A stretch of 64,000 nt of DNA, taken from Norana najaformis. Its lineage: Eukaryota > Annelida > Clitellata > Crassiclitellata > Hormogastridae. The position numbers and the translations under genes were made by a program. Where the stretch lies: the NCBI GenBank assembly GCA_964023275.1, contig OZ029917.1, forward strand, positions 33,012,505-33,076,504. Reading direction: 5' to 3'. Shown here piece by piece: positions 15,067 through 62,028 of the stretch; the stretch's first letter is position 1, and the number at the start of each line of letters is the position of its first letter. A model generated the notes under the pieces. The model made no database searches. It saw only the letters and a program-made list of their open reading frames with translations, and had not been told where the DNA came from.

Positions 15067-18000
15067 CTATAGAATAATGGACTGAGAACAGAGAATGGTG
15101 GGATTTTCCTGTCCTTCATTCCAAACACAGTAGGGAAATCCAGGAGTCTTAGCACAGCTGACGCTTTTCAAAGCTGATGCTGCGCCATAGCTGCCCTGAA
15201 AATTCAAAATAAAATGCTGGCCATCAGTTCAGTTTCATCGACATTTCAACACAGACTCAAACCATAATACAGAACTTACACGTGATTTCTAAGTCTTTTG
15301 GAACTGCCAACAGTCATTTGAGTTTGGTAAATATCAGGCAGTGTTTGTTAAGTAAAGCCACGAAATTTCCAAGCTTCATCCCTATAAATTACATTATAGA
15401 AGGTTTACATGGTAATTTTTATACCAATACTATTACTGACATTAAACATAGACTTATCCAGTACTGAGTTCTTCAAAATATTAACTTCATCATAACCACT
15501 TAGAGTTCCTTGCATTTTATTTCTTCCAGTTTTCTCTGGTAATCACTTCTGTCCATTCTTTCCCCTCTGATTCTGTTTGGTCCTTTTCTTCTTTGTCACC
15601 CATCTCACTTTCTTCTAATCTCTTCTTTTCCCAGTGTTTTTTCTCTTCAGAGCCTCTCTTACGATAAATCTGGTTTTCCATCTCCAAACTGTGAAGAATG
15701 TTTACACCAAAAATATAATTATTGTAATTGATTTTAGCACATTACACGCCCATTTTCAGGACTTGTTGCACTGTCTGGGCTATAAAGACTTAGTTTTTGT
15801 TGTAAATTTAATATAAAACTTGTACAGCCACATCTGTAATTTAGAAGCATCCCAGTGCATTCTGAAAGTGGCTGTACCACTAAGCAAGATGTTTGGACAT
15901 TCACAAAACTGTACAGCAATTCATTCCATGCGACCCTAAGCAAATTCTCAGAGAGTCAGCCCAGGGTTGAAGGATCTTTGAGCAAAAATGCAAATAGCAA
16001 TCCAGAAATCAAGCAACCTTTTACTGTAGGTTGAACAATCAACTGTCAATTTCAAATGGCAAACCACGATTCGAATCGTGTACAAAGTTCTTTCAGTGTA
16101 ATCCTTACCTGCATGTTCATTGCTATGATCCCAATTTCAAATGTGTTGCTGGCGCCAACTCTTGTACAGATTTCCTGAACCACCTGTTGACATGCATCAG
16201 CTGGTGCTGCTCCCTGTTTCATCAGCTGCACTACATGGAAACTTGGGCAGAACTTCATGATCTCATCTCCATCTCCTGTGGCACATGCGGCACCAGCTAA
16301 GCTGTCTGAAAAGTTAAATTAATATGTTAACAGAAGGTACAGTTAGCACTAGTTTCTGTAGATTTATAATGTATTTGCCTTCCAGGCGTCCACCTCAATT
16401 GTCAGGTTCAAATTTTGGTGCATCATGTCAAATTTACCATTTGTTGCCAAGCCAAGTAACCATAAATGAAAGGTTGTCCAACTGTTGCATGCTGTGCTTC
16501 AGTTAAAAGACACTTCAAACCCAAGATCACACACTCTGAAGATAAGTTTTAAGAGGCCAATTAATAAACAATTACTTTACCTTACCTTAATTTGACTTAC
16601 CTGATCTTTCCTTTTCATACATGTATCTTACCATTCCTCTAATGACCATTAACCTCCAAAGCACGCTCCTGTGGTTCAGTGATTTTTTGGTGTAAGAACA
16701 AATGTAACAACAGCAATTCACCAACCAGCAACCACACCTGTTGGGTTAAATGCCTCAAACTTAAAAAAACTGTCAGGATCACACAAGCATTGGAACCATG
16801 GACAGAGTGCTGAAAGGCTGACACATTAACAATCACCAGAAGCAAGAAAATGTCCAAGATTCAAACAAATCAGAAGAGGAATGAAACAGCAAACACGACT
16901 TTAAGAGAGAAGTTATAGTAATGGCTCATTTTTTATGCAGATCACAATCATAATCATAAATGAATGTGCACATTTATATAGCACCTCTTCAAGAAAACTT
17001 CAAGATGCTCCTGACCTGAAGTAACAAGACCATGATTGAATGGAATGGTTACATCAACTGCGCTCCTCAAACTGCAGTGTTTGGATCACAGATATCAGTT
17101 AAGAAAATGAATGCAGTATGCTGTATGTTCTGACCTGCATACAACCCGCAGCCTGGCAAAGGACTGTCGCCAACGCGTCCTGGAAACTTGTGCGGCATTC
17201 CACTGGTCGAGACACCTAGGCCAGTGACAGAAATCAGTAATGACTAAATGCAGTTCAATGTTCTCTAATCACAAATTTTTACAGCCTTCCTTGAAGGAAA
17301 TTTCTCTGCTGTGCTACCGACCTGACAAGACCAAGTCACTCTGAAAAAAGAAAGTCTTTAAAAGAATGACAGACTTTGGGCAGTGAAGCACATCCTGAGC
17401 ATAGACAACTACAAAGCCTACCCAGGTTGTTAATAACTAACAACCTTGACAGGCTGTCTAGCTGTCTGTTGTTCAGTCAGTGGATTGGTGTGTCAAACAG
17501 ACATCTGTTGACAAACAAATTTTGAAAACAACATGACAGTAATGAGAAAGAAAGATGATACAGACTACAAGGATATCAAAACATAACAAAAAACAATTTT
17601 CAAACAACATCAGTGATTACAAAAGGTAAATGATAATTTAATGATAACAATGTTGACGGTTAACAACGATACTGACAGAAATTATTTCAAATGATGTTCG
17701 GGAGAAAGTGATGATAAAGGATCTGCTTAAAAAGTAGTCTTCTGGTTGCAAGGTTCGTAAAAGTTTACATACCATACGGCAACATGCATGACTATATGGA
17801 ACTCTTTCATCTGATCTAGGTTCATTCTGTATGTTAGCTATTTTAAATTAACTTCCACATGTTCATTGCTAAAATGGCACTCTAAAAACTCTATGAACAC
17901 TCCGTAGGAATTTAGGTCCAAGAAAATATGAAAAAATTTCTGAAACTGAACTCTCACACACACCAGCTGCAATGTTTTGGAATTGATCAAGTGGGCTATT

Positions 18001-21000
18001 CCGTGTGAAATCAACCAATTTCCTAACATTTTCCCACCTTCAACCTTAGATTTGGCTGAAAATTTCTCCATGTACCTGTCCACCATTTTGAGGCACAAAT
18101 ACAAAATTTTATTATGATATGTCAAAATTTGGTTTAGATATACCATCTTAAAGTGAGGTGGGGTAGGCGAAAATTGGTATCCGATTTCGCGAAATGTTCT
18201 TTGAGGCCATGTTCAACATAAAATAACTCCAGAAGTAGAGGGGGTAGAGGCATGAGGTTTTCACTGTTGTATTCAGAAAGTGACTGGTGACCTAATGAGC
18301 CTATTACAATGATTGTGCCTTGAGTAGAGACTTTAGAGGACAGCTGTCAATATGCCATCTCAGAAATCGCAAACTGTATTTTCTTCAGTTTGCCTCACCA
18401 ATATGACGAAAAGCAGCTGCAAATTTTTTTTAATCTTTTCATATTCTGATTTAGCAAGTAATGGGCTCCTACTGGATGTATTTTACTTTGATGTTTATTT
18501 ACAAATGAAATCATACTGACATGCTAAACTTGGTCAAACTGATGAACGGGGGTCAACTTCACCAGCTGATATTGGGAAACTGACAACTGGGATCTACCTG
18601 AACTTCATATTTCTGAAAAGTGCATGCATTGACCTTTCTGGTGATACAAATTTGATTTTGGTGCTCAGAAGCAATCAGGAGCAATGCTTTGTTGAATATA
18701 GCTCTATTTTCGATGTCGCGACTAACCAGAATCCATGTCTAGTTTTGGCTGTTAATTATGTGATTATTCATTTTTCACTGTTATGTGTACCTCTATAAAA
18801 CTTGCTATTTGTTTAGATTTGAATATGTATTGAAATCAAAGTCTGCAATCAAATTAACTAGCACATGCTATTTTCTAATATTATTCATTAACCTGCTTAA
18901 GATGTTTTGTGTCTAGGTCATGATTTAATATAAATTTCTCTCTATTCTATTAATTTTTATTGTGAAGAAATCATATTTTCCCCCAATGCCTTTAAGCCTT
19001 TATGCTAATTAGCCTCTAACATGCTAATTTGCCTCTAACATGCTAATTAGCCTCTAAGCCTCTAAAGCCTCTAACATGCTAATTAGCCTCTAATGCCTCT
19101 AGCATCTCTAAGCCTTCTAGGCCCTTATTCGAATTAGCCTCTGACATGCTAATTAGCCTCTAATGCGTTTAAGCCTTTATGCTAATTAGTCTCTAACATG
19201 CTAATTAGCCTCTAATGTCTCTAAGCCTCTAATGCCTTTATGCTAATTAGCCTCCAAAATGCTAATTAGCCTCTAATGTTTCTAAGCCTCTAAGGATGCC
19301 TATAAAAGAGCATTAGCGTCGGCAGAGCCGTCCATCGAGTTTGAGGTCGAACTACCATCAGCAGAGCAGTTCGTCAGCAGTAGTCGCAGTGTTCGAGTTC
19401 GACTCCGAAGTTTTCATTTAGCTAGTTAGTCGGCCGCGTTGAGTTGAGTACTCGAAATAGTTTAGTGGTTTAGTTGAGTAGTAGGTAAGTCACTGGCATA
19501 ACTGTACTTCAGTTGTTATAACTGCAGTTTTAAGTTGCAAACAATAAACGATAGAAACGTGAAGACTTTGTTGCTCAGCCTCCCGATAGACCATGGGAGC
19601 CTTGCCCTGTGGACCAACCCCAGAAGAGCACAGGTTAGGTCATTCTGGTGTATGTTCGGACCAGCCACCCTCAGGAAACACATCCAGGGTTTTGTCCGTT
19701 ACATTATCTGTGGTTTTTAAAACTGGACATGTGATTAGTCAGCAATTTTGAAGAGATTGTTAAGTAGATGATAATTTGTTTATCACTATCTTGGTCAGGA
19801 TGTTAAAATTTAGTTTTTATTTTATGATTTACTGGGATTATTTTGGGCAGAACATGTGATCTGTACTTGAGGCATTTTGAACAGATGTTAAGAGTTGTTG
19901 AATAGATGATAATTTGTTTTAACACTTCCAGTTAGTTTTAAATAATAACTCATCGTGCAGTATAGAACTGCAGCACTTGTGGTCTGTTTTTACATTTATT
20001 TAAAAAATACAGTCTTCAATGTCTGATATGAAAACAAGTACATGATCCAGTCTGGAATTTCGGTGATATTTTGATCCTATGTTTTCAGTTTTTAGTTACA
20101 TGACTCACTGCAGACAATTTCAGTAGTCATGGACAGCTGCAGCATTGGAAGACACTGTAACCAAACCCAGGAATGTCATAAAACCACTTACACCACAAAA
20201 ATTGGACTTAAGAGATTATCTGATTTGGCCGATGATGAAAGGCATATCTTTCTGCAAAGAATTTGTTTGGATAATCCAGTTCCTGAAATGACTGTCTGTC
20301 ATCATCACGAGCAGATATAGCAAGTTTTATAGAGGTACACATAACAGTGAAAAATGAATAATCACATAATTAACAGCCAAAACTAGACATGGATTCTGGT
20401 TAGTCGCGACATCGAAAATAGAGCTATATTCAACAAAGCATTGCTCCTGATTGCTTCTGAGCACCAAAATCAAATTTGTATCACCAGAAAGGTCAATGCA
20501 TGCACTTTTCAGAAATATGAAGTTCAGGTAGATCCCAGTTGTCAGTTTCCCAATATCAGCTGGTGAAGTTGACCCCCGTTCATCAGTTTGACCAAGTTTA
20601 GCATGTCAGTATGATTTCATTTGTAAATAAACATCAAAGTAAAATACATCCAGTAGGAGCCCATTACTTGCTAAATCAGAATATGAAAAGATTAAAAAAA
20701 ATTTGCAGCTGCTTTTCGTCATATTGGTGAGGCAAACTGAAGAAAATACAGTTTGCGATTTCTGAGATGGCATATTGACAGCTGTCCTCTAAAGTCTCTA
20801 CTCAAGGCACAGTCATTGTAATAGGCTCATTAGGTCACCAGTCACTTTCTGAATACAACAGTGAAAACCTCATGCCTCTACCCCCTGTACTTCTGGAGTT
20901 ATTTTATGTTGAACATGGCCTCAGAGAACATTTCGCGAAATCGGATACCAATTTTCGCCTACCCCACCTCACTTTAAGATGGTATATCTAAACCACCAGC

Positions 21001-23759
21001 TGCAATGTTTTGGAATTGATCAAGTGTGATCAATCCAATTGTATCATGAGGGTGATCGCTGCCTCTCAAGTCGTCCGAGGTTCTGTCACTGCAAAGCAAT
21101 AGACCTGATTAAAATTGATCGTAAACACAGCTACGTTGGAAATGTCATCAATAGCAACACATCATAATCGTCAATGGCTGTATCCTACTTTTTGCCAGCA
21201 AATAGAATGACATCAGCGTTTTTATGAACAAACTGTATTAGATGACATGGGGAAATTTGAACAAATGTACAACTCGAGTACACATTCATGGACATGCAAA
21301 TGTAGCATACTTTTGCCTCAGACATGCCTAGACATGTTCAGGCAAGCTGAAATGTATACCGGTAGGTTTCAGTGAGATATGTGTACACATGTTCTTTCTG
21401 AATAATAGATTCATGTTAGGTCTCTGAAGTGATGACATATAGAGTTGAAAATTATAATTGGAGAAACTGCATGAATTTATGTGATAAAAGAAGAAAAGAA
21501 GAAATTCAGTACAAATCAAAAGAAAAGCAAGCTGAGATTTTATTTAGAAATAGGCCATGTTATTTCATACGAGATGTTATAACTAGTGCTTAAGGCAGAA
21601 CATTAGTCTCGGAGATAGGGAAGACTGGCTCTGAACTCTGGGGTCACATTAATAACTGAAACAAATTCAACAATGATTAGAATGACGACTCTTGGGTAGA
21701 ATCTGTTTCTACCTTCCCAAATGCTGAGAAGCCTCCTGTCCAGGTCTCAGCAGGTTCTCCATAGGCTCCAGAATAAATCCCTGCTCAATCGCAAACTTCT
21801 GTGCTCCAGCACCAACAAGAAAACTGTGTTTTGATTTCTTCAACACTTGTGATGCAACTTTTATAGGAGTAGCAATTCTGTAATAGACAGTCTAAATAAT
21901 GGATAAAGTTATTTCATATGGTACAACAACAATAATGATAAACATGATAATGATGATGATGATAATAATAATAATATAGTGTGCATAGAGTCAGGCATAA
22001 TAATAACCACAGTAATAATAGTAGTACTGGTAGTAGTAACAATAATAGCAATAACATCCAACATTTCCAGTGTCTTTCAATTGCAATTCACTGTTTCAAT
22101 ACCATTTTCTCCCAGAGAAATTTTGCTCAGACAGAACTCGACGAGATGAAACCATTCCAGATATGTTTTTATTCTCTCCAGAAATTTGTTGGGAACCTCA
22201 GGGATCATCGCTACCTCGCCATTTAAATAATAATAATCAAGGCCCTCATCATCTATCTACTGCTAACCTAATTTTTCATTTCTTATGGGTCACTTCTTCC
22301 TGAAATCTAAATATTTATGTAGCAGCTTTCAAGGACCTCTCAAAGGCACTAAATAAATGCAACAGTCATAATCAAATAAATGCTACATGATGTAAAGTTA
22401 AAGCAACAATAAAAACTTATAACATAAAATAGTAGCAGTAATAATAGTAATAATAATAACAATTATATCACAGATATTTCCTTCACCCTTCAAGGGCTGC
22501 CACAGCTCCAAAAGCGAGATCCTTCCCATCCATGATGGCCGCATCACACTGAAGATGGCCTGACAAATTGGGGATTCCACCACGACCAACAATATAGCAA
22601 CCAGTTTCAATGTCATCTTCTATAGCTGAAATTCATTTTAATATCAGTTAGACTAATTATTATTATCATTACTAAAACTAAAGGAACCTTTTCTCACATA
22701 ATACTGTACTGGATATGGCCCTGAATGGTAGCATTATAAATCTAATCTAATGACTTCTCTAGCGCCATTATCATAATGTCCAAGGCATCAGTCGATGGTC
22801 ACTTTAAGTCAAAATCGCAATCCAAAGTCATAATCTGTTGGAGAACCCAGGTCAAATTCTGAGAGAAACAAAGTAGGCTACAGCTGGTAAGCAAGTTGGA
22901 ACAGATGAGTTTTAAGTTTAGACCTGCATGGCCTAAATAGGGTTCATCAAATCTGGACATCAACAGATACGTAACTTCCTGTCATATGCACTGTGATTTT
23001 ACTTTAAATAAGTTCACAGATTATACAGTTTGATCTACAATAGCTTCTCTTTGTATATCATTATTGCACTTGATGAATGTCCATGTTATATCTCCCCTCT
23101 CTTTTCCACAAGCGCTTGAAGACCTTCTTACTTCCAAGTGCTTCTGGGCTGTCAGGAGTTTATCTCAAAGTGGCGCTTTATAAATTTTTGATTACATTAC
23201 ATTATATACCAAAGGGCAATTTTTCTGCAAACAAAGGCCTGAACTGTTTGCTGCTGCTGCCATTACATCAAATATAACAATCTGGGCCAACGTGCTGTTT
23301 CCCGGTTTTTGGCGAACTTCACCAATTTCACTTCGAAGTCTTATTAAATATTTCTGCATCGCTCTGGGACCTCCTGCCATATTATTACGGTGTCCAACCG
23401 TAAACTGCAATAGCCTACGCGTGTCAGCGGCAGAAGACTTTTTCCCTAACCAAAAGCATTAAATAGCCGCGAACAAACTGTTGTTCTTACAGGTTTCAAC
23501 GTAGGGGCTAAATACTGGCAGTATATACATGGCACTACTAACTTAAAATATGGGTTTTTTCAATAGTCGATAATGAAATGAAATCTTAAGTGCTTGTTAC
23601 AAGCATTAGTTCGGGTCAGTTTTATTTTTGAAACATGAAAGAATTACATGCAATTGCACACTCTGCAGCTTCTAACGCATCTTCAGATTTAAGAAGCTTT
23701 TCTTTCGCGATACGAACCGCAGGAAAACTAAACGACCACGTCCCTATGGACGCCGCCAT
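15067..23759 (-). CDS. AGA: Glycosylasparaginase (N4-(beta-N-acetylglucosaminyl)-L-asparaginase) family protein
   Basis: Seven minus-strand exons with consistent phases: 23648-23759 (ATG 23757-23759), 22487-22625, 21713-21877, 20997-21088, 17135-17215, 16109-16305 and 15067-15195 (TAG 15067-15069), giving 304 aa. Landmarks: N-terminal [36 protein letters not shown]-type block; [13 protein letters not shown] with the predicted autocleavage/nucleophile Thr at residue 155; [25 protein letters not shown]-terminal GSYGAAS. In this Ntn-hydrolase family the precursor cleaves before that Thr and hydrolyses the GlcNAc-Asn bond of glycoproteins. It is shorter than human AGA (346 aa), and the modelled start lacks a signal peptide, so lysosomal targeting is not shown. 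Intron 17216-20996 is enlarged by a long-inverted-repeat insertion at the donor. It could be an AGA-like paralogue rather than the true orthologue. Confidence 0.9.
16965..17060 (+). repeat. Dispersed repeat (family E) copy
   Basis: Matches 7650-7730 in order: TATAGCACCTCTTCAAG, GATGCT, then ACCATGATTGAATGGAATGGTTA. It lies in the AGA intron between 16305 and 17135. Confidence 0.4.
17961..17993. repeat. 33-bp direct repeat, left copy (matches 20994-21026)
   Basis: Identical to 20994-21026, which is the last 30 bp of the AGA exon 20997-21088 plus its GTG donor start, read on the minus strand. It looks like a target-site duplication. In this copy the duplicated exon end is followed by a donor GTGTGTGTGAG, which reads like the original AGA intron start. 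Confidence 0.85.
18131..18808 (+). repeat. Inverted arm 1 of the AGA-intron element
   Basis: Starts GGTTTAGATATACC and ends CTCTATAAAACTTGCTAT. It is the reverse complement of 20317-20994 over its full length; mismatches were noticed near 18203, 18239 and 18313 only. Confidence 0.93.
18985..19296 (+). repeat. Degenerate tandem array of ATGCTAATTAGCCTCTAA words
   Basis: About ten copies of an 18-20 bp unit with GCTAATTAGCCTCTAA core, interspersed with GCCTCTAA(T/G) fillers, in the core of the long-inverted-repeat element. It stops 5 bp before the TATA box at 19301. The repeated TAATTA core is a homeodomain-type site, so an upstream activating array is conceivable (inference). Confidence 0.8.
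19301..19308 (+). promoter_or_regulatory. TATA box inside the inserted element
   Basis: TATAAAAG directly after the tandem array. The following ~170 bp are more GC-rich and lack an ORF. A GTAAGT donor occurs near 19484 (TAGTAGGTAAGT), which would end a leader exon. Confidence 0.5.
20129..20320 (+). CDS. Small Cys/His-rich ORF in the inserted element
   Basis: Sixty-three residues preceded by an acceptor-like TTTCAG at about 20117-20122, six bases before the ATG. Cysteines and histidines are grouped at both ends (C-S-I-G-R-H-C ... Q-E-C-H and a terminal V-C-H-H-H-E-Q), a possible zinc-binding pattern. The frame stops at the inner edge of arm 2 (20317), so it may be the captured 5' end of a longer gene cut off by the arm. 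I do not recognise the family. Together with the upstream TATA box and donor it could form a two-exon transcript running opposite to AGA. Confidence 0.4.
   Translation: MDSCSIGRHCNQTQECHKTTYTTKIGLKRLSDLADDERHIFLQRICLDNPVPEMTVCHHHEQI
20317..20994 (-). repeat. Inverted arm 2 of the AGA-intron element
   Basis: Reverse complement of 18131-18808. Its outer end lies 2 bp from the AGA exon 20997-21088, so the present splice donor reads GTGGTTTAGA, in which only GTG comes from the gene. Confidence 0.93.
23095..23205 (+). mobile_element. LINE 3'-end fragment
   Basis: Frame [11 protein letters not shown] followed by GTGGCGCTTTATAAATTTTT and an ATTACATTACATT tail matches the tail of the LINE at 1-498. 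It lies in AGA intron 22626-23647. Confidence 0.65.
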
Positions 23760-26650: not shown

Positions 26651-28193
26651 TTATTTCTTTCCTGCTGCCTTTTTTGGCTTTGCTGCCTTTGTTACTGCCT
26701 TGGGCTTCTTTGCTTTGGAGGGTGTTGCTGCCTTGGGTTTCTTTTCTTTAGCTGCCACTGGTTTTGGCTTTCTGGTTGGCTTTGGCTTGGCTGCTTTGGT
26801 AGTTTTCGCTGGAGACTTTGGTTTCTTGGCCTTGGGTTTCTTTGGCTTGGCTGCTTCGCTTGCCTTCTTGGGCTTCTTTGCTTTCTTTGGCGTTGGTGCT
26901 TTAACCTTCTTGACGACAGCCTTTGGTTTCTTTGTAGCTTTTGTCTCTTTTGGATGTTCCTTTTCTGTGCCGAGTTTGAAACTTCCGGAAGCTCCAACGC
27001 CCTTCGACTGCTTCAGTGTGCCATTCTTGACTCCAGCGCGAAGTGCCAACTTCAGATGAGCATTGATCACCTTCTCATCCTGGCCAAGATTGTAGTGCTT
27101 GATGACGTACTTGAGAAGCGCCTGACGAGAAGAACCTCCACGCTCCTACAACACATGAAAAGCCACCATGCTTTAAACATGAGACAAATCCATGCAGGTT
27201 AATTTCGGTGGGATAACTGTATCCTTTTTATTTGGAGAGGGATACCACACCCTTCAACATTTCAAGCAGGTACAAAAAAACAACACCTGTAAAGCCTGCA
27301 AATCAGCAGTCCATCTACGAAGACATTCAAGCAGCTGTATTATTCAAACGACATTCTGATCTGTCATTGAAACAATATGCTAACACATTATGGAGCACAA
27401 CTATTTACATCCTACTAGAAGCACTAAGATTTAAAAAGTTGAATTTGCAAAATCAACTTCTTTAAATCATTAACAGCACATGTCAAAAGGGATTGCAATG
27501 AAGCTCAAATTTTTTTGTCTCACAAAACAAATTTTCAAGTAAAAAAATTGCAGAGAGTTACAGAAGTCTGAAAGTCTGCTGCAGCCAATATGCAATTCAT
27601 AAATCAGTTTAAACCCCCAAAACACATTGTAAATGAATTTATAATAAACACTGTCACTAGATACTTATGTAAATTTCAACAGACATTTACAGTGTGCCTC
27701 TTACTAAGAAACTGTAACTTTAACATACACTGCACCTAGAAGTGTGGAATAATGTCAGCTCTACGGACAGAAACTTTTGACCACATGAAGCATGAATGAC
27801 GCACACAACCAGTTCATAAACTAAACATGCGAAAACACATCAGCATGCTAATTCTGCTTCAAAACACCAATTTTTCATGGCCCTCCACAGTTACCCTACC
27901 AGCACGTTTTAACTCCCCTAGATCTAAATAAACGTCGTATTGACATCAAAAGTGAACAAACCCCTCAAATCTTAACTCCCCCTAAGTTCTAAATCAATTT
28001 TTCACTTTAGACTTGTCGAACTTACTTTGAGAGCTGTCAAGGCGTCCCGAATCATCGCCGCATACTTCGGGTGGTCGGCTGCCTTCTTCGGCTTCGCAGC
28101 CGCCGTCTTCTTTTTGGCCGACTTTGCAGGGGTTGTGGCCGCTGAAGCCGCGGCGCTCGTCGCTCCCCCTGTAGCTGCTGCTGCATCAGACAT
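26651..28193 (-). CDS. Linker histone H1 (intron-containing)
   Basis: Two exons: 28026-28193 (ATG 28191-28193) and 26651-27145 (TAA 26651-26653), joined by a GTAAGT/TGTAG intron, for 220 aa. Residues ~1-40 are an Ala/Lys/Thr-rich tail. The winged-helix globular domain follows (HPKYAAMIRDALTALKERGG, SSRQALLKYVIKHY, ALRAGVKNGTLKQSKGVGAS, GSFKLG), then a ~100-residue Lys/Ala/Pro tail with many KKPKA repeats. H1 binds linker DNA at the nucleosome dyad. An intron in the globular domain, no visible histone stem-loop after the stop, and an AATAAA overlapping the stop codon fit a polyadenylated replacement-type or orphon H1 rather than a cluster copy. The coding part of the minus-strand frames is GC-richer than its surroundings. 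Confidence 0.95.
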
Positions 28194-30612: not shown

Positions 30613-31670
30613 AAGAAAGACTATAACTTAGGCCCGTACTGAGCCCATACAGAAAGGCTAAAACTTAGGCCTATACTGAGCCCATACAGAAAGGCTATAA
30701 CTTAGGCCTATACTGAGTCCATACAGAAAGACTATAAATTAGGCCCGTACTGAGTTCATACAGATAGACTATAACTTAGGCCTGTACTGAGTCCATACAG
30801 AAAGACTATAACTTAGGCCTGTACTGAGTCCATACAGAAAGACTATAAATTAGGCCTATACTGAGTCCATACAGAAAGACTATAAATTAGGCCCGTACTG
30901 AGTCCATACAGAAAGACTATAACTTAGGCCTATACTGAGTCCATACAGAAAGACTATAAATTAGGCCTGTACTGAGTCCATACAGAAAGACTATAACTTA
31001 GGCCTATACTGAGTCCATACAGAAAGACTATAACTTAGGCCCGTACTGAGTCCATACAGAAAGACTATAACTTAGGCCAATACTGAGTCCATACAGAAAG
31101 GCTATAACTTAGGCCCGTACTGAGTCCATACAGAAAGACTATAACTTAGACCTGTACTGAGTCCATACAGAAAGACTATAAATTAGGCCCGTACTGAGTC
31201 CATACAGAAAGACTATAACTTAGGCCCGTACTGAGTCCATACAGAAAGACTATAACTTAGGCCTGTACTGAGTCCATACAGAAAGACTATAACTTAGGCC
31301 TGTACTGAGTCCATACAGAAAGACTATAACTTAGGCCCGTACTGAGTCCATACAGAAAGACTATAACTTAGGCCTATACTGAGTCCATACAGAAAGACTA
31401 TAAATTAGGCCCGTACTGAGTCCATACAGAAAGACTATAACTTAGGCCTATACTGAGTCCATACAGAAATACTATAACTTAGGCCTGTACTGAGTCCATA
31501 CAGAAAGACTATAACTTAGACCTGTACTGAGTCCATACAGAAAGACTATAAATTAGGCCCGTACTGAGTCCATACAGAAAGACTATAACTTAGGCCTGTA
31601 CTGAGTCCATACAGAAAGACTATAACTTAGGCCTGTACTGAATCCATACAGAAAGACTATAACTTATGCC
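30613..31670. repeat. 37-bp minisatellite, about 28.5 copies
   Basis: Unit core ACTATAACTTAGGCC and TACTGAGTCCATACAGAAAG. Copies vary mainly at two places: AACTT or AAATT, and CCCG, CCTG or CCTA before TACTGAG. The array decays at both edges (CCC for TCC at the left; TGCCTTTGTTGAA at the right). Fixed length with no indels is striking. Confidence 0.97.
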
Positions 31671-33314
31671 TTTGTTGAACGAATATAACGTATTTTGTCA
31701 TGTAGCTACATAGAGCGACGAAGCAATGTTAGCGATTATGTTTTCACGCATATAGTTCTGAGCGTTTAAATGGTGACTTAACAAAGCCGTATTGTTAACA
31801 GTTTGGAATTGTAACAATAATTCAAAGCATTATGGACTAAAGCTATTAAACGCTATTGGTAAATAAACAGAAATATAAATATGCAAAGAATTTATTTTTA
31901 ACCATTTTATGCTTACTTGCCTTCTCGGCGCGTTTCTCGCAAATTAACTTTACCGACTTTGTGACGGTTTTCTCAGTCACGGTCACATAAGTGCTACATT
32001 TTTGCTACTAGTTTACAAAATGCTCATACACTAAATTCGAGCGCTGTATTGACTTTGGTATTTGTAATCGGCCTTCTAATTATAAGTAGATCTAAGAGTT
32101 GTTTGGCGCACTATATATCGACCTGTAGCTGAGCTGATTCCCATCATTTCTCGAATGCGGCACAGAAACCTAATTAAGCGATTTATTTAAGAGATTTGAA
32201 TCTCGGGCTAGTACGGTCCGTGCACGGGAACCTTAAATGTTGTGGCGCCCATTGAAACGGGCAGCGCTGGTGAAAGATCTCACCCGATAAATTCATTGAA
32301 AAATGAGCAGGGTCGAGGCCATACGATTGCTATAGGAAACCATGTAGGCCTACATTTACATTTAATTTACATTTATTTGACTGCAAAGTGGCCTATCCTG
32401 TTTCTATTGTAGCCACAGAATCTTTTAGCTGTCAGAAATAAAATCTTACATTATCTCAATCACGGTCGTTGGAATCACTATTAATAGTATATGATAACAG
32501 CATATCGTAATCATAATCGTCGTCATCATATTCATTATATTATAACTAATTATTATGTTGTAACGCGTCCTTTGAGTAAGACATTGTTTTATTAAGGCGC
32601 ATCATAAATATAAGTTGTATTGTATTGTATTATAATGGTCGCAATTTCTATACACTCCAAAGTGTCGAACTTTTTCAGATCCTGATCGGTTGCGGGTGCC
32701 TTGCTACTCTAATAGGTACAGTAGGCCTAAGTTAATCATTTGATGATAATAAAATTATATTGATATGATGATTTCACTTAGACCTACAGTGATGATAATG
32801 ATGATGAAGATATTAACACTTAATTTTCTTATACTCCAATTTGCTTCAACACTGAGTAGTGACTGACTAGGCCTATGAATAGTCAGAGCTAAGTGAACAG
32901 CGCAGTTTCTTTATTGAAAAAACCTAAGCTTTTCAAAAACAACAGTTTTGTTATGTTTATGTTTTTGCCAGTTGTGAGCAGTGGACTTTGGTAGCAATAA
33001 GAGCTAAACTAATAAGTTAATTAGGTTAAAATAGCCTAATATGTTGCATGTTTTTATTATTCAGAACTGGTTAACTGAACAGTTGTTTTTTCATTCTTTG
33101 TAACAGGATGGATGGCATTGACTTCCATATCATTATTTAACTAAAATGTTACATATTTTATGAAACAGGTATAGCCTATGTGTAGAGCTATTGATTCCAA
33201 TCTCAAAAGTGCACAGTCTAGATGGAATGGATGGATGGATGGATGGATGGACCATCTGCTGCTGCTGCTGCTGCACGCTGATGCTGCTGCTGCTGACGAG
33301 GTGTTGGTGGTTGC
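31671..33314. other. Region downstream of TTC38, no gene recognised
   Basis: Holds the second family C repeat, a short word shared with 46506-46533 and an (ATGG)n/(CTG)n tract at 33229-33300. The part next to 33315 is presumably TTC38 3'UTR. Confidence 0.5.
32165..32360 (+). repeat. Dispersed repeat family C, copy 2
   Basis: Second copy of the repeat at 25315-25480, about 75-80 percent identical by eye over the shared blocks. It carries a GAGATTTGAATCTC palindrome and ends in ACATTTACATTTA-type sequence. Confidence 0.7.
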
Positions 33315-45695
<12,381 letters not shown>

Positions 45696-56400: not shown

Positions 56401-59400
56401 TACACTGAAGTTTTCAAGAAATATAAAGATACTGACACATCTGGTATACTCCGATTCCTTGGGCTAGTCTAACTGGTGGATATGACTTCAGATTTCCAGA
56501 AGATAAGTTGCTAGAATGAAAGGTTTTTGAGTTATGTTCGTTGGGAGATGCGAAATGCTATTATGCTGGACAAGCCGAGATTGTCAGATTAGCAGTAATG
56601 TATTTTAAGCTACTAAATAAAACTGATGACAAATATGAGAAGCAAGTGTGTAAACAGTATTGTGACTTTGTTTTATGATCAAGAAATTTAAGACAGGAAT
56701 GATCAAGACATTTGAAAATGTAGGGTCATATACATCCTGGACAATGAGGAACTAAGCGAGTTAACATGGCTTGTAGAAATGGCACCTTCCAGGCACCTAG
56801 GCGTGGAGTATAAGCACAGCTTAGACCTGATGCTTACAATCAACGCAAAAATGTGTGACCGGTTTTAGGCTGGCCACGTGGACTGCCTAAGTGTCAAGAC
56901 CCTTTTAATTCTGCTAAAAAATCAGCATAGATCATAAGTGCACTAACTGGCATAACGACAAACAAGCAATATTCTGATACAAGTTTAACTTTGCTTAGTC
57001 TTTTTCTTTCTATACAAAGATGTGCAATCTTCTGTAAACCAGAGCACAGTACCAAATGTAACTGTCAATGCTGCAAGCCAGTTCACACACGGCAAAAAAT
57101 AAAGGGGACATTGCATAAAACACAACTAAAAATATTGTCACATCACACACACCTAACCCACAAATACCTAGGTAAGTTACCTCACCTAAACACTTATAAA
57201 CTTACCTATATATTTTATCCTTGTCTATTAAATCAAATAAGTTTTGACAATTACTTAGACTTCAACTGCTTGGCATACCTTTGATCAACAACTATAGTCC
57301 TTAAATTAGCACAGTCGAAAAGTGTTAAAGGATCTTTACATTACGCATAAGACATGGAAACAGAAATCATGTGACAGTTTGTTAACACATTCACAGTGAA
57401 TTCACTTTCATCATATCATGCTGGTGAAATTGCCTTACAATAACAAAAATGATATCAATGGGTTGAATGAGTCTAGTGAAAATATATAATTATGCAAAGT
57501 ATGCTGGGTTTCTGATCCCAGACATCACATGGGATGCAAAAGTTCTTGGGTCACCTTGCTATATTACAATTCATTGCTACAAAATTAATTATCAGGATAA
57601 CAAGAGAACTCCTCCGATGGGTTAAGTCTATTATCAAAAAGAAATTTCCAATTCTGTCACATCCACCATGATTCGTAATTTCAGAGATGAAGGATTGTGA
57701 AACGCTACTATATGATCACCACGTCACCCAAAAAATCACGAAGTCGAATTAAAAAGAAAGAGGAACTAAATGCTTTTTGGATTAATCCAAGTCATACCTT
57801 GTTCTCTTCTTCTTCCTTCTTAACTTCATCACTGTTGAGCGCTGCTTCATAGTATTCATCATACATGGGACATGGAACATCTGTGTCAAGCAACTGCCAA
57901 TAAACAAGAGTGACATGTCAGTCACATTTGCTCTATATAGAGTCATATAACACTAAGAAAGTTAACAAAACTCAGGTAAAGTAAAGTAAGGCATATGAGG
58001 TTGGATAACTAGTTCTCAGCCAGCCAATTCCAAGTACTGATAAAATAGACTGCAACAAAATCTGACTTTCACAGTAAAATTTCATTAGTGTTCTTCAGGC
58101 CAACACCACAGCATATTTTCACTTGTTCAACGTGTCTTGATTACTGCAATTCATTCCTTGCAGACCTGTTCTGCTTGTGCCAATAAATGTACTCAATTCT
58201 TCCACCCATGTCGTGGGCAACAAGCTGAAATATATCCACATATCAAATATTTAAACAACTCTGATAAAATTAGTCTTAAGTTGGATTTTCCATGTTTGAA
58301 ATTTTTATTTGATGAAATAAGAGAATTCAAATCTTCTTTAAAATTATGTATCACTCTCATAAGTATCCCAGAGCTTTGGAGACCTCGTCAAAACCTCTGA
58401 ATCAGTGGAAGTTTAACGATCACAACACTCACCACTAGACCACTATACCAGATGTCATTACATAGAAAACTACTCACGTAATCGACGTCTGTCGGAACAG
58501 TGTGAACTGGAATTGGTTGCCATAGCAAATCTTTGTTCCAGATCTGGCCACCAGATGGTGGATAAAGTCCAGCCAGGTTTGAATATGCACTCATCAGTGT
58601 TCGGTCATAGTCTGTACTTCGTAACTTTATCTGTCAAAATACAAATATTAGTAATATAATGGAATTTGCCAGAAATTTACACAGTGTCCCCTTCAACAAA
58701 AATCCTCATCTTTGCTGCTGGACTGATAACTTAGCCTGACGGCGCTTTATGAGGCAATGAATAAAAGAACAGACAACGTTGAAATTGAAATTCCACTTCC
58801 AAACTGGTAGTTAACAACTGTGCCAGAAGGTCTTGTAAAACAGCATAGCTGCATTCAGTCCTCTACGAAAGGTGACAATGGCATGCCGCACGCCGCCGTG
58901 TTTGGGTGGTGCCAGTCACAACCTGGATTAGGGAGGAGGGTTACACTAATCAACTTTCTTATGACCCAGCATCATTAAACAGAAACTACAGTCACTCTGC
59001 ACTCAAAGAGAGTTTACAAGTGAATATGCAACTACTGAATGATGTCCAATGTTCTGGATATGAAGGTATCTTTGTCTAAACTGATATTCCAATGTATAGA
59101 AATTCCACTGTATTTAATTAATTGATTTTGAGCATAAATTTTTCCTAAGTTCAAAGTACTAAGCTAATCTAAACTTCTACAGCAGCATCATAATGATAGT
59201 GAGAAATTAGTAAATAATTAGTAACTTCTAAGGCGTAGGTGTCTAATGCACAAGGCATCGACCACAAAAGCCAAGCCACAACAAAGTTAGTATCCAGGAT
59301 GTCAGTCCAATAAGACAGAGAGGCAAAACTCGCACAATATTATGCATTATGTCAGTTGATGGTGCACGGATGTGAGAGTTGGACTTTGAGGAAGGAGGAA

Positions 59401-62028
59401 GAGAGGAGGATAGAAGCATTCGAGATGAAATGTCTAAGAATGATCATGCAAATATCGTGGATGGAAATGCGGTCAAATGAATGGGTACTGGAAGCGGCTG
59501 GAGTAGAGAGGAATCTTTTGAAGACAGTAAGGAAAAGGAAATTGATCTATTTTGGCCACATCATGAGGAAGGAGGGAACATGCATCGAGAAGGAGATAAT
59601 ACAGGGCACAATACCGGGAGGACGGAAAAGAGGAAGACCGAGAATAAACTGGTTGGGCAACATCAGGGCATGGACTGGGCTAACAATGGAGGAGATGCTC
59701 AGGCTGGTGGAAGACAGAGGACACTGGAGGAACATTGTGCATGATGCGGCCGAATCTCGGAACGAGGAATGGTGCACCATCACATGTCAGTCATCGCAAA
59801 ATGTGCTATATTTTAAGACCTTAACTGTGTAGCAATTTCACTCCATTCCAATAACTTGTGTTATTAAGTATTTTTTATATAACTAAAACAGTGATTTAAT
59901 TAAGAACGGCACCTTTAGGAATAATAATTTGGCATTATAGTCATAAAATGTAAAAATGTTTACAGAGGCATGTTGACAATTTCCTATTTCAACTAAAACA
60001 ATAATAATGAAGTTCATGATGCAAGCAGTCGCCATAAAACCTAATGACATCACTTAAAATTAAAATCGAGGAGAACATCTTCGGAAGAAACGACGCTTTA
60101 AGGAGAAGTTGAAAGAATTTCTTGACTGTGGTAGATGATTGATCTAAATCAGCTCAACGGATTAGTTATCATCTAAACTCCGCCACAGAGTTCAACAGAT
60201 GTAGCTACATTGTGATACAAAAGAGGCAGATGTTTGAAGTAATTATCATGATTATCGGCATTACTGGCAAATGTCTCATATTCTGCAGGGCCTAAACTTT
60301 TTACACTTTATACTGATATCTTCCAAAATAAGATATAGAATGAAATTAATAATTTCTTCAGAAAACTTACCTCGTGGCAATTGTAGGAGGTATTGAGAAG
60401 CCTGTATGGTTGACCTTCAATGTAGCGTTTTCTCAAGTATTTGCCGAGTTCAAAATGCTGAACCATGCCTTCCTACAACCAATATGCAAAGTCCATATAA
60501 CAACAAACACCTTCTCTTTATGCCACAGAAGCACAGGATTTGTCAAATACGAAGAACTGGTGAATGCTAATGAGCTGATAGCTTTCTCATCTACGTTTGA
60601 TTCTTGGTGTCTTGGATGGAATTAACAATTTGTCGTCAGGTTCCTAAATGAAACCTCACCTATTTCAGGTTAACTAGCCTTTAAAGAAGGGTTATCATAT
60701 TACTGGTATGCTTTATCATTTTGTATATCTTTCAGCCATAATATAAAAACCTTAAGACCAAACCAGAAAGAGTCATTGTTGAAAAAGGCATGTAACAAAT
60801 AAGCGATTGCCTCATCATGTAGAAATAAAAAAGAGCAGAAGCAAAAACCTGATAGACACTGGACAACCTACCTGAGTCAGCTGACCAAATCCCTGAGGCC
60901 ATGCAGATTCTGGAAGAGGGTTGGTTGGGAAATTCTGAACAGGGCTACGATCACCATGTCTATAAAGCTAAAAGTAAAAAAAAAACAATACTCAATCTGA
61001 ACAAATTTCAAAACCCTGTTCAAAACTTAATCTGAAATTGATCTAGAATAACGGCAAAATCTCATTTAAGGTCTATTCTGTTAATTCTGCATACATATAA
61101 GCAACATGGCTGCCCTCAACTGCAAGAGAAAATAGAGCATTTCAGGCCCATCAGAATTTATCCAATAAGAAATAAGTAAGAAAGCGTTAATAGTTAAGTA
61201 ATCGTTTGCTACAACATGTGCATTGCCATTAAAAATAGTTTAACTATAACTTAATTTTTTTGTCTGAAAAACTTATAAAATGGCTTTTTTGCATTTTGTT
61301 TTATGCATGATCACAACTTTGTAGATCCGAGCAACACTGAAGCATACATACATAAAATGTAGATGCATACTAAACACAAACTGAAAAGACACTTATGTAC
61401 AACTTGCAATTTGTTTCTCTTGTATATGAAGGAGTTTACATGAAGCAGAGCACTTTGTAGTGAAAACACTTTCATAAACTTTTGCAATTGCAAGAAATAA
61501 AGTATTCTCAATAAACTTTTGTGTTACTCCCTTACTTAATTATTTTGTAATTAGATACATTTCAGTAATTTTGCAATTTAGGATGGTAATAATGTTCATA
61601 CATATGTGGTATTAACAGACCTCAGAGATTTTGCCTTAGTAACATTTGAAATTTATTATTTCAACCAAAGCCAGTTCCTTAAATAAACCCCTTATTTACA
61701 TTGCTTGGATCACACGATATCTGTTTCTCAGCAACTGCGCATTGTGAAGACAAATACTTTTTGGCTAGGCTAGCCTCATGTAATTCTGTTTTCCTTGTCT
61801 ACCAGGGATGTCTCGCTGAAAGCTGGCTTGATAATTAAATATCTTACTTACAATTTGGTCGGAACCAGCATTGTAAGACCATTTAATCCAAAGTACAATA
61901 TAATATCGTCTAGAAGCGTAACTTACTATCTGAACCATCAGAAGGGTGTCCTTGTCCTGTTGTGCGAGGCATCCGAAGACCAAAAGCAACGAAGAAATAA
62001 CGTAAGTTACGATGGATGACATCGCCAT
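50493..62028 (-). CDS. ACP2: Histidine acid phosphatase, lysosomal/prostatic type
   Basis: Eleven minus-strand exons with consistent phases: 61927-62028 (ATG 62026-62028), 60872-60967, 60371-60472, 58478-58630, 57798-57893, 55493-55582, 54161-54299, 53620-53702, 52622-52793, 51426-51530 and 50493-50641 (TAA). The product is 428 aa; human ACP2 is 423. A signal peptide (residues ~1-22) precedes [15 protein letters not shown], whose His38 is the expected phosphohistidine nucleophile. [23 protein letters not shown] and His288-Asp289 (SAHDST), the acid/base motif, follow. A CNDSC...VDWYSEC Cys-rich end, a transmembrane helix (~382-405) and a cytosolic tail with YNGL (417-420) complete a type I protein. 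Several N-glycosylation sequons occur (N93, N191, N225). Family members hydrolyse phosphomonoesters in lysosomes. The symbol is by similarity; it may be co-orthologous to ACP2, ACP3 and ACP4. Confidence 0.94.
58878..58985 (+). repeat. Dispersed repeat family D, copy 2
   Basis: Matches 47430-47580: GGAGGAGGGTTACACTAATCAAC, CTTATGACCCAGCATCATTA and ACAGAAACTACAG. It lies in an intron of the acid phosphatase gene. Confidence 0.5.
59205..59335 (-). mobile_element. LINE family A 3' fragment
   Basis: Reverse complement of the family A tip (AATTAGTAACTTCTAAGGCG...GCACAAGGCATCGACC...CCAGGATGTCAGTCC). It joins the RTE fragment at 59340 head to head. Confidence 0.7.
59340..59830 (+). mobile_element. 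RTE-like LINE ORF2 C-terminus
   Basis: An open frame of 158 codons, 59356-59832, matches the RTE-clade C-terminal region: [20 protein letters not shown], then [30 protein letters not shown] and [14 protein letters not shown]. The frame is intact, so this copy is younger than other LINE pieces here, but it is heavily 5'-truncated. It lies in acid phosphatase intron 58631-60370, antisense to the gene. Confidence 0.85.

Follow-up and report, generated by a model that had tools for sequence, protein, structure and literature searches.

How does a long-inverted-repeat element of 3.0 kb come to lie at a splice donor with a 33-bp copy of the exon end on its far side? An earlier reading made from the letters alone (the sequence-only reading) had noted that a 33-bp duplication with arms of about 680 bp fits no DNA transposon class that it could name. 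The window, the whole stretch of DNA analysed, comprises 64,000 nt of Norana najaformis (assembly GCA_964023275.1, contig OZ029917.1, 33,012,505 to 33,076,504, forward strand), and all coordinates refer to it unless a locus is named. The family survey was performed on the assembly of 608 Mb in 17 contigs which contains the window. Elsewhere in the window, a tandem array of a 37-bp unit (about 28.6 copies) occupies positions 30614-31671, a linker histone H1 reading frame lies on the minus strand at 26651-27145, a 54-aa piece of it matching Pfam PF00538, and two reading frames (40021-40455 and 59314-59832) resemble, by eye, reverse-transcriptase-type fragments of non-LTR retrotransposons.

The interrupted gene is, judged from its sequence, glycosylasparaginase (AGA): four of its five exon pieces matched Pfam PF01112 in a profile comparison, and solved glycosylasparaginases match the joined exon pieces. 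A search of the assembly with a 107-aa query found no other close AGA copy, the best other matches being 48-54% identical. The intron between the two AGA exons listed in Table 1 is 3,781 bp long; subtraction of 3,033 bp leaves 748 bp (the limits of exon 17135-17215 being hand-counted), in agreement with the value of about 750 bp which had been proposed for the intron without the element and one repeat.

Table 1. Features of the element and of the interrupted AGA gene.
Feature	Position	Strand	Basis or remark
Next AGA exon, acceptor CCTAG	17135..17215	-	limits counted by hand
Far copy of duplicated exon end	17961..17993	-	certain target 17963-17992, both edges ambiguous
Complete left terminal inverted repeat, 816 bp, starting GGGCTATTCC	17993..18808	+	sister-copy comparison
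Left spacer	18809..18960	+	found in sister copies too
LTR-like block, 743 bp	18961..19703	+	TG..CA and TATA box read by eye; TTAT on both sides
Right spacer	19704..20316	+	3' part holds a frame continuing in a longer relative
Right terminal inverted repeat, outer 128 bp missing	20317..20995	-	comparison with full copies
Exon-side copy of duplication	20994..21026	-	exact repeat
AGA exon with HDTIG motif	20997..21088	-	donor now GTGGTT

On the minus strand, exon 20997-21088 is followed by GTGGTTTAGA and the far copy of the exon end by GTGTGTGTGAG. Read on the gene strand, the exon end CTG continues with GTGGTT, and GTGTGT is kept at the far copy. Scored with a generic donor matrix, GTGGTT received 0.13 as against 3.64 for GTGTGT, which agrees with the earlier claim that the exon-side donor was altered while the far copy keeps another donor. 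The T and the third base, G, of GTGGTT fall in a CA microhomology and are compatible with target or element. The exon GT is retained where target and element both have TG on the gene strand, and the resulting donor scores lower. The window copy, which affects the only close copy of AGA detected, is an example of how such an insertion can leave a splice GT intact where there is microhomology.

The direct repeat (17961-17993 and 20994-21026) is exact over 33 bp; 30 Markov-1 random sequences of equal length gave longest exact direct repeats of 15-19 bp. The bases 20994-20995 (CA) and 17993 (G) match element and target alike. Because these edge bases fit both, the certain target part of the duplication is 30 bp (17963-17992 and 20996-21025). 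The inverted arms (18130-18808 and 20317-20995) are 679 nt long with 3 mismatches. The left repeat is separated from the left arm by 136 bp and the right side is without a gap; the outer 137 bp of the left inverted repeat (17993-18129) has no right-hand partner in the window copy.

The sequence-only reading had placed an exact 33-bp repeat around the element, and the element itself at the AGA donor with the exon end duplicated; the first was recovered by sequence comparison and the second, over 30-33 bp, by exon mapping and the repeat together. That the whole arrangement is an assembly artefact or a chance repeat is the least credible of all explanations considered, and practically negligible: 3 of 679 positions are mismatched between the arms, the 33 bp lie far above the repeats of random sequences and the same pattern occurs at six other loci, described below.

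In a first family search, with 17961-18200 as query, 40 of 100 candidates gave scored matches, and most of these matches start within a few bases of 17993, the expected start of the element. Twenty matching stretches were retrieved, corresponding to 19 sister copies. Their flanks differ from those of the window copy, showing that the 33 bp are foreign to the element. A full sister copy measures about 3.13 kb and consists of an 816-bp left arm, a spacer, the LTR-like block, a second spacer and an 807-bp right arm. The window element is a shortened, 3.0-kb member of this family and is truncated on the right, since its missing outer part is present at the right of full copies. The arms of about 680 bp described earlier were therefore correctly measured, at 679 nt, but they are the retained part of inverted repeats of about 810 bp. 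The family has defined termini, typically GGGCTATTCC ... GGAATGGCCC, with single-base variants in L033 and L050.

A search of the assembly with an internal 30-mer found 23 copies, and both ends were readable in 22; L054, a diverged relative, was left out of the end analysis of this set. Fifteen of the readable copies are intact and carry 4-bp duplications, and the remaining seven lack part of one end and carry duplications of more than 4 bp. When a 4.6-kb relative is added to the 15 short copies, exact 4-bp target duplications are found in all 16 aligned copies with both ends intact (gtat, tatt twice, atat, aatg, agtt, agag, aata, tata twice, ttac, atta, ataa, aaag, atgt and tttt). Among smaller relatives an exact 4-bp fit was seen in three (aatt, and aaaa and tact by eye), and in L061 the fit was 3 of 4. 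One miniature member of about 307 bp (L042, 9177-9458), with an aatt duplication, lies close to the truncated copy L043 on the same contig.

Since members with both ends intact carry exact 4-bp duplications, 33 bp is not the rule of the family: the suspicion raised by the length was sound, although 33 bp is not the characteristic duplication of the element. For the same reason an element class with naturally long or variable target duplications, for which the window repeat speaks if taken alone, is contradicted by the 16 of 16 copies with exactly 4 bp, and we give it hardly any credence. The best explanation is that the element is a non-autonomous terminal-inverted-repeat DNA transposon which normally makes a 4-bp target duplication.

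The LTR-like block (18961-19703) was found in 19 of 19 sister copies. A later solo-LTR insertion was rejected on this ground, and the block is therefore a constituent that was amplified along with the family; it seems to stem from an old LTR insertion which a DNA transposon carried with it as it multiplied.

The longer relative (4,631 bp; L053 and L055, G000:C3:24009300-24017950) has the family ends and a TTTT duplication. It is common with the short element over the left 2.3 kb and then holds long reading-frame pieces (putative transposase), including pieces of 303 and 333 aa with strings such as LDFAENY and YFSDGAASQYKN and at least one stop inside; the frame in the right spacer of the window element continues into them. 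In place of the reading-frame region the short element has its own left end repeated in inverted orientation, a structure that could have originated by interrupted gap repair. Neither the 323-aa nor the 80-aa reading-frame piece of the longer relative matched a Pfam family at E 1, and five putative transposase-motif strings had no match in literature text.

A TTAA target rule holds for both piggyBac and Kolobok, according to the available part of PMC9587614. Both were excluded here, as none of the 16 duplications is TTAA. Sola DNA transposons make 4-bp duplications not restricted to TTAA; the likeness is one of duplication length, and Sola membership is a tentative lead. Foldback and other long-inverted-repeat elements, for example Tm1, share the long inverted repeats; the family described here has 4-bp duplications when both ends are intact. 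Viral contigs contained no match for two exact patterns of the element, and the 10 pattern matches in prokaryote contigs showed only short similarity to it and were taken as chance. A terminus string was also searched in literature text; it occurs in 66 papers, and the 20 listed among them look unrelated by title.

In the seven truncated copies of the 30-mer set (right end damaged in five, left end in two), the duplication lengthens with the number of bases lost: 6 bp lost and 5 bp duplicated in L039, 15 and 7 in L051, 25 and 7 in L052, 68 and 10 in L038 (with a low-complexity flank), 128 and 30 in the window copy, 229 and 41 in L043, and 248 and 48 in L031, where the duplication has 4 mismatches. 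For this post hoc trend (n=7) the Spearman coefficient was 0.99 (2/5040 permutations) or 1.0 (1/5040), depending on how overlapping bases are assigned. A linear fit to the same 7 copies, likewise post hoc, gave r 0.98-0.99, an intercept of 3.0-3.8 bp and a slope of 0.18; an earlier fit with hand-typed numbers had given Spearman 0.96 (7/5040 permutations), an intercept of 4.06 and a slope of 0.157.

All seven damaged joints show microhomology of 1-5 bp each. Its sum, 14, compares with a simulated mean of 2.6 and was reached in none of 20,000 simulations. At the opposite end each of the seven copies has the exact family terminus, and the duplication directly adjoins it.

Two further truncated copies, both from outside the 30-mer set, have no duplication above shuffled controls: L059, with a right loss of about 96 bp, and L064, with a right loss of about 226 bp. 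The relation between loss and duplication thus holds in 7 of 9 truncated copies read on both sides. For ten more loci the reading covered a single side, the left of L056, L057, L058, L060 and L063 and the right of L066-L070. Exact right-end matches at about 2.9-3.3 kb were found for L056, L060 and L063, which may be intact; stretches of 101 and 111 bases at the predicted left ends of L067 and L068 contain no recognisable element sequence. Five exact right ends, at C3:40562637, C4:20440397, C7:13661586, C10:29368162 and C14:6305477, lack a matching left end in their vicinity; the reading covered their right sides. L039 may have begun with a 4-bp duplication and lost 5 bp afterwards. The element of L031 is less than 1% different from the window copy, and yet there are 4 mismatches in its 48-bp duplication; error-prone copying of the target is a possible source of them.

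These observations are probably explained (we put the probability at roughly 0.7) by insertions in which transposase joined one end in the normal way; the other end would have been shortened by resection and attached through host end joining, with copying of the target meanwhile lengthening the duplication. The window copy itself has an intact left end, a lost right end, a long duplication and microhomology. In its case the transposase would have joined only the left end to the target. The right end would have stayed free and lost 128 bp, presumably by resection, and the nicked target would meanwhile have been copied leftwards, perhaps by strand displacement, over about 26 bp more than the usual 4. 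Sealing of the shortened right end at CA by microhomology-mediated end joining would then give the duplication of 30-33 bp; the gap may have been closed by a polymerase-theta-like end-joining activity. A longer delay would allow both more loss and a longer duplication, the two possibly following a common clock.

The main rival holds that both ends were joined with a 4-bp duplication and that one gapped joint broke later. On one side of the break the element would have been resected; on the other, the host DNA would have been lengthened with the empty site of the sister or homologous chromosome as template, and the two would then have been joined at a microhomology. The products predicted are the same, namely a perfect terminus on one side, microhomology, and duplications that grow with the loss, but a second template and a second accident are required in 7 of the 22 readable copies, and we regard this course as unlikely.

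Insertion of element transcripts by a LINE-type reverse transcriptase, as proposed for retro-DNAs, could also produce long duplications and end truncation, and primate retro-DNAs do have longer duplications and apparent truncation (available part of PMC11195612). It is disfavoured, and far less probable than the broken joint, by losses at either end (two left, five right) and by the duplication adjoining the exact terminus, with no tail between, in 7 of 7 truncated insertions. The exact terminus is a stronger argument than the missing tail, because most retro-DNAs are also without a potential poly(A) tail; the part of PMC11195612 available to us gives one in 176 of 748 primate retro-DNAs.

Joining at one end by transposase, with host repair of the other, is thus the reading we retain. 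It is conceivable, and put forward tentatively, that about one third of insertions (7 of the 22 readable) finish by such a one-end route, with the duplication recording the delay until the second end was captured. On this equally tentative reading, the duplication would measure about 4 bp to begin with and grow by a constant 0.18 bp for every base missing from the free end.

The length of the target duplication serves in transposon classification, and it can be misleading when it is long and stands next to a truncated end. Should the grading of duplication with loss be real, ordinary genome sequences hold a fossil record of half-failed transposition and microhomology repair; should the one-end route be, this genome would offer a natural ruler for the kinetics with which failed concerted transposition is repaired. 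To our knowledge, such half-failed joining has been described chiefly for retroviruses whose integration was made to fail on one side. Limited literature searches found no report of a graded form of loss and duplication for a DNA transposon.

In single-ended piggyBac transposition, studied in cell assays, one inverted repeat likewise takes part normally; the other end remains attached to the donor, and the available part of the report (PMC3952818) describes no graded duplication. Primate retro-DNAs resemble the truncated copies in their DNA-transposon sequence, long target duplications and apparent truncation, but they are described in the accessible part of PMC11195612 as lacking terminal inverted repeats and are attributed there to LINE-1 machinery, whereas the exact terminus is kept in 7 of 7 copies here.

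The closest likeness is to aberrant integrations of HIV and avian retroviruses, for which the part of PMC5041404 available to us reports one end joined normally, frequent truncation of the other, and host duplications most commonly enlarged when the enzyme inserts one end only. The normal joint at one end, the truncation at the other, the enlarged duplication and the joining by host enzymes are alike, and a pattern apparently of this kind occurs in 7 copies including that of the window, L059 and L064 being without duplication. The retroviral cases, as given in the same source, were induced by drug, mutation or vector (an avian vector with a bad end; HIV with weakened integrase or with strand-transfer inhibitors), and their duplications can reach hundreds or thousands of bp, whereas those found here extend to 48-53 bp and are graded with the loss. 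The copies described here belong to a natural DNA transposon, in contrast to retroviral integrations made to fail.
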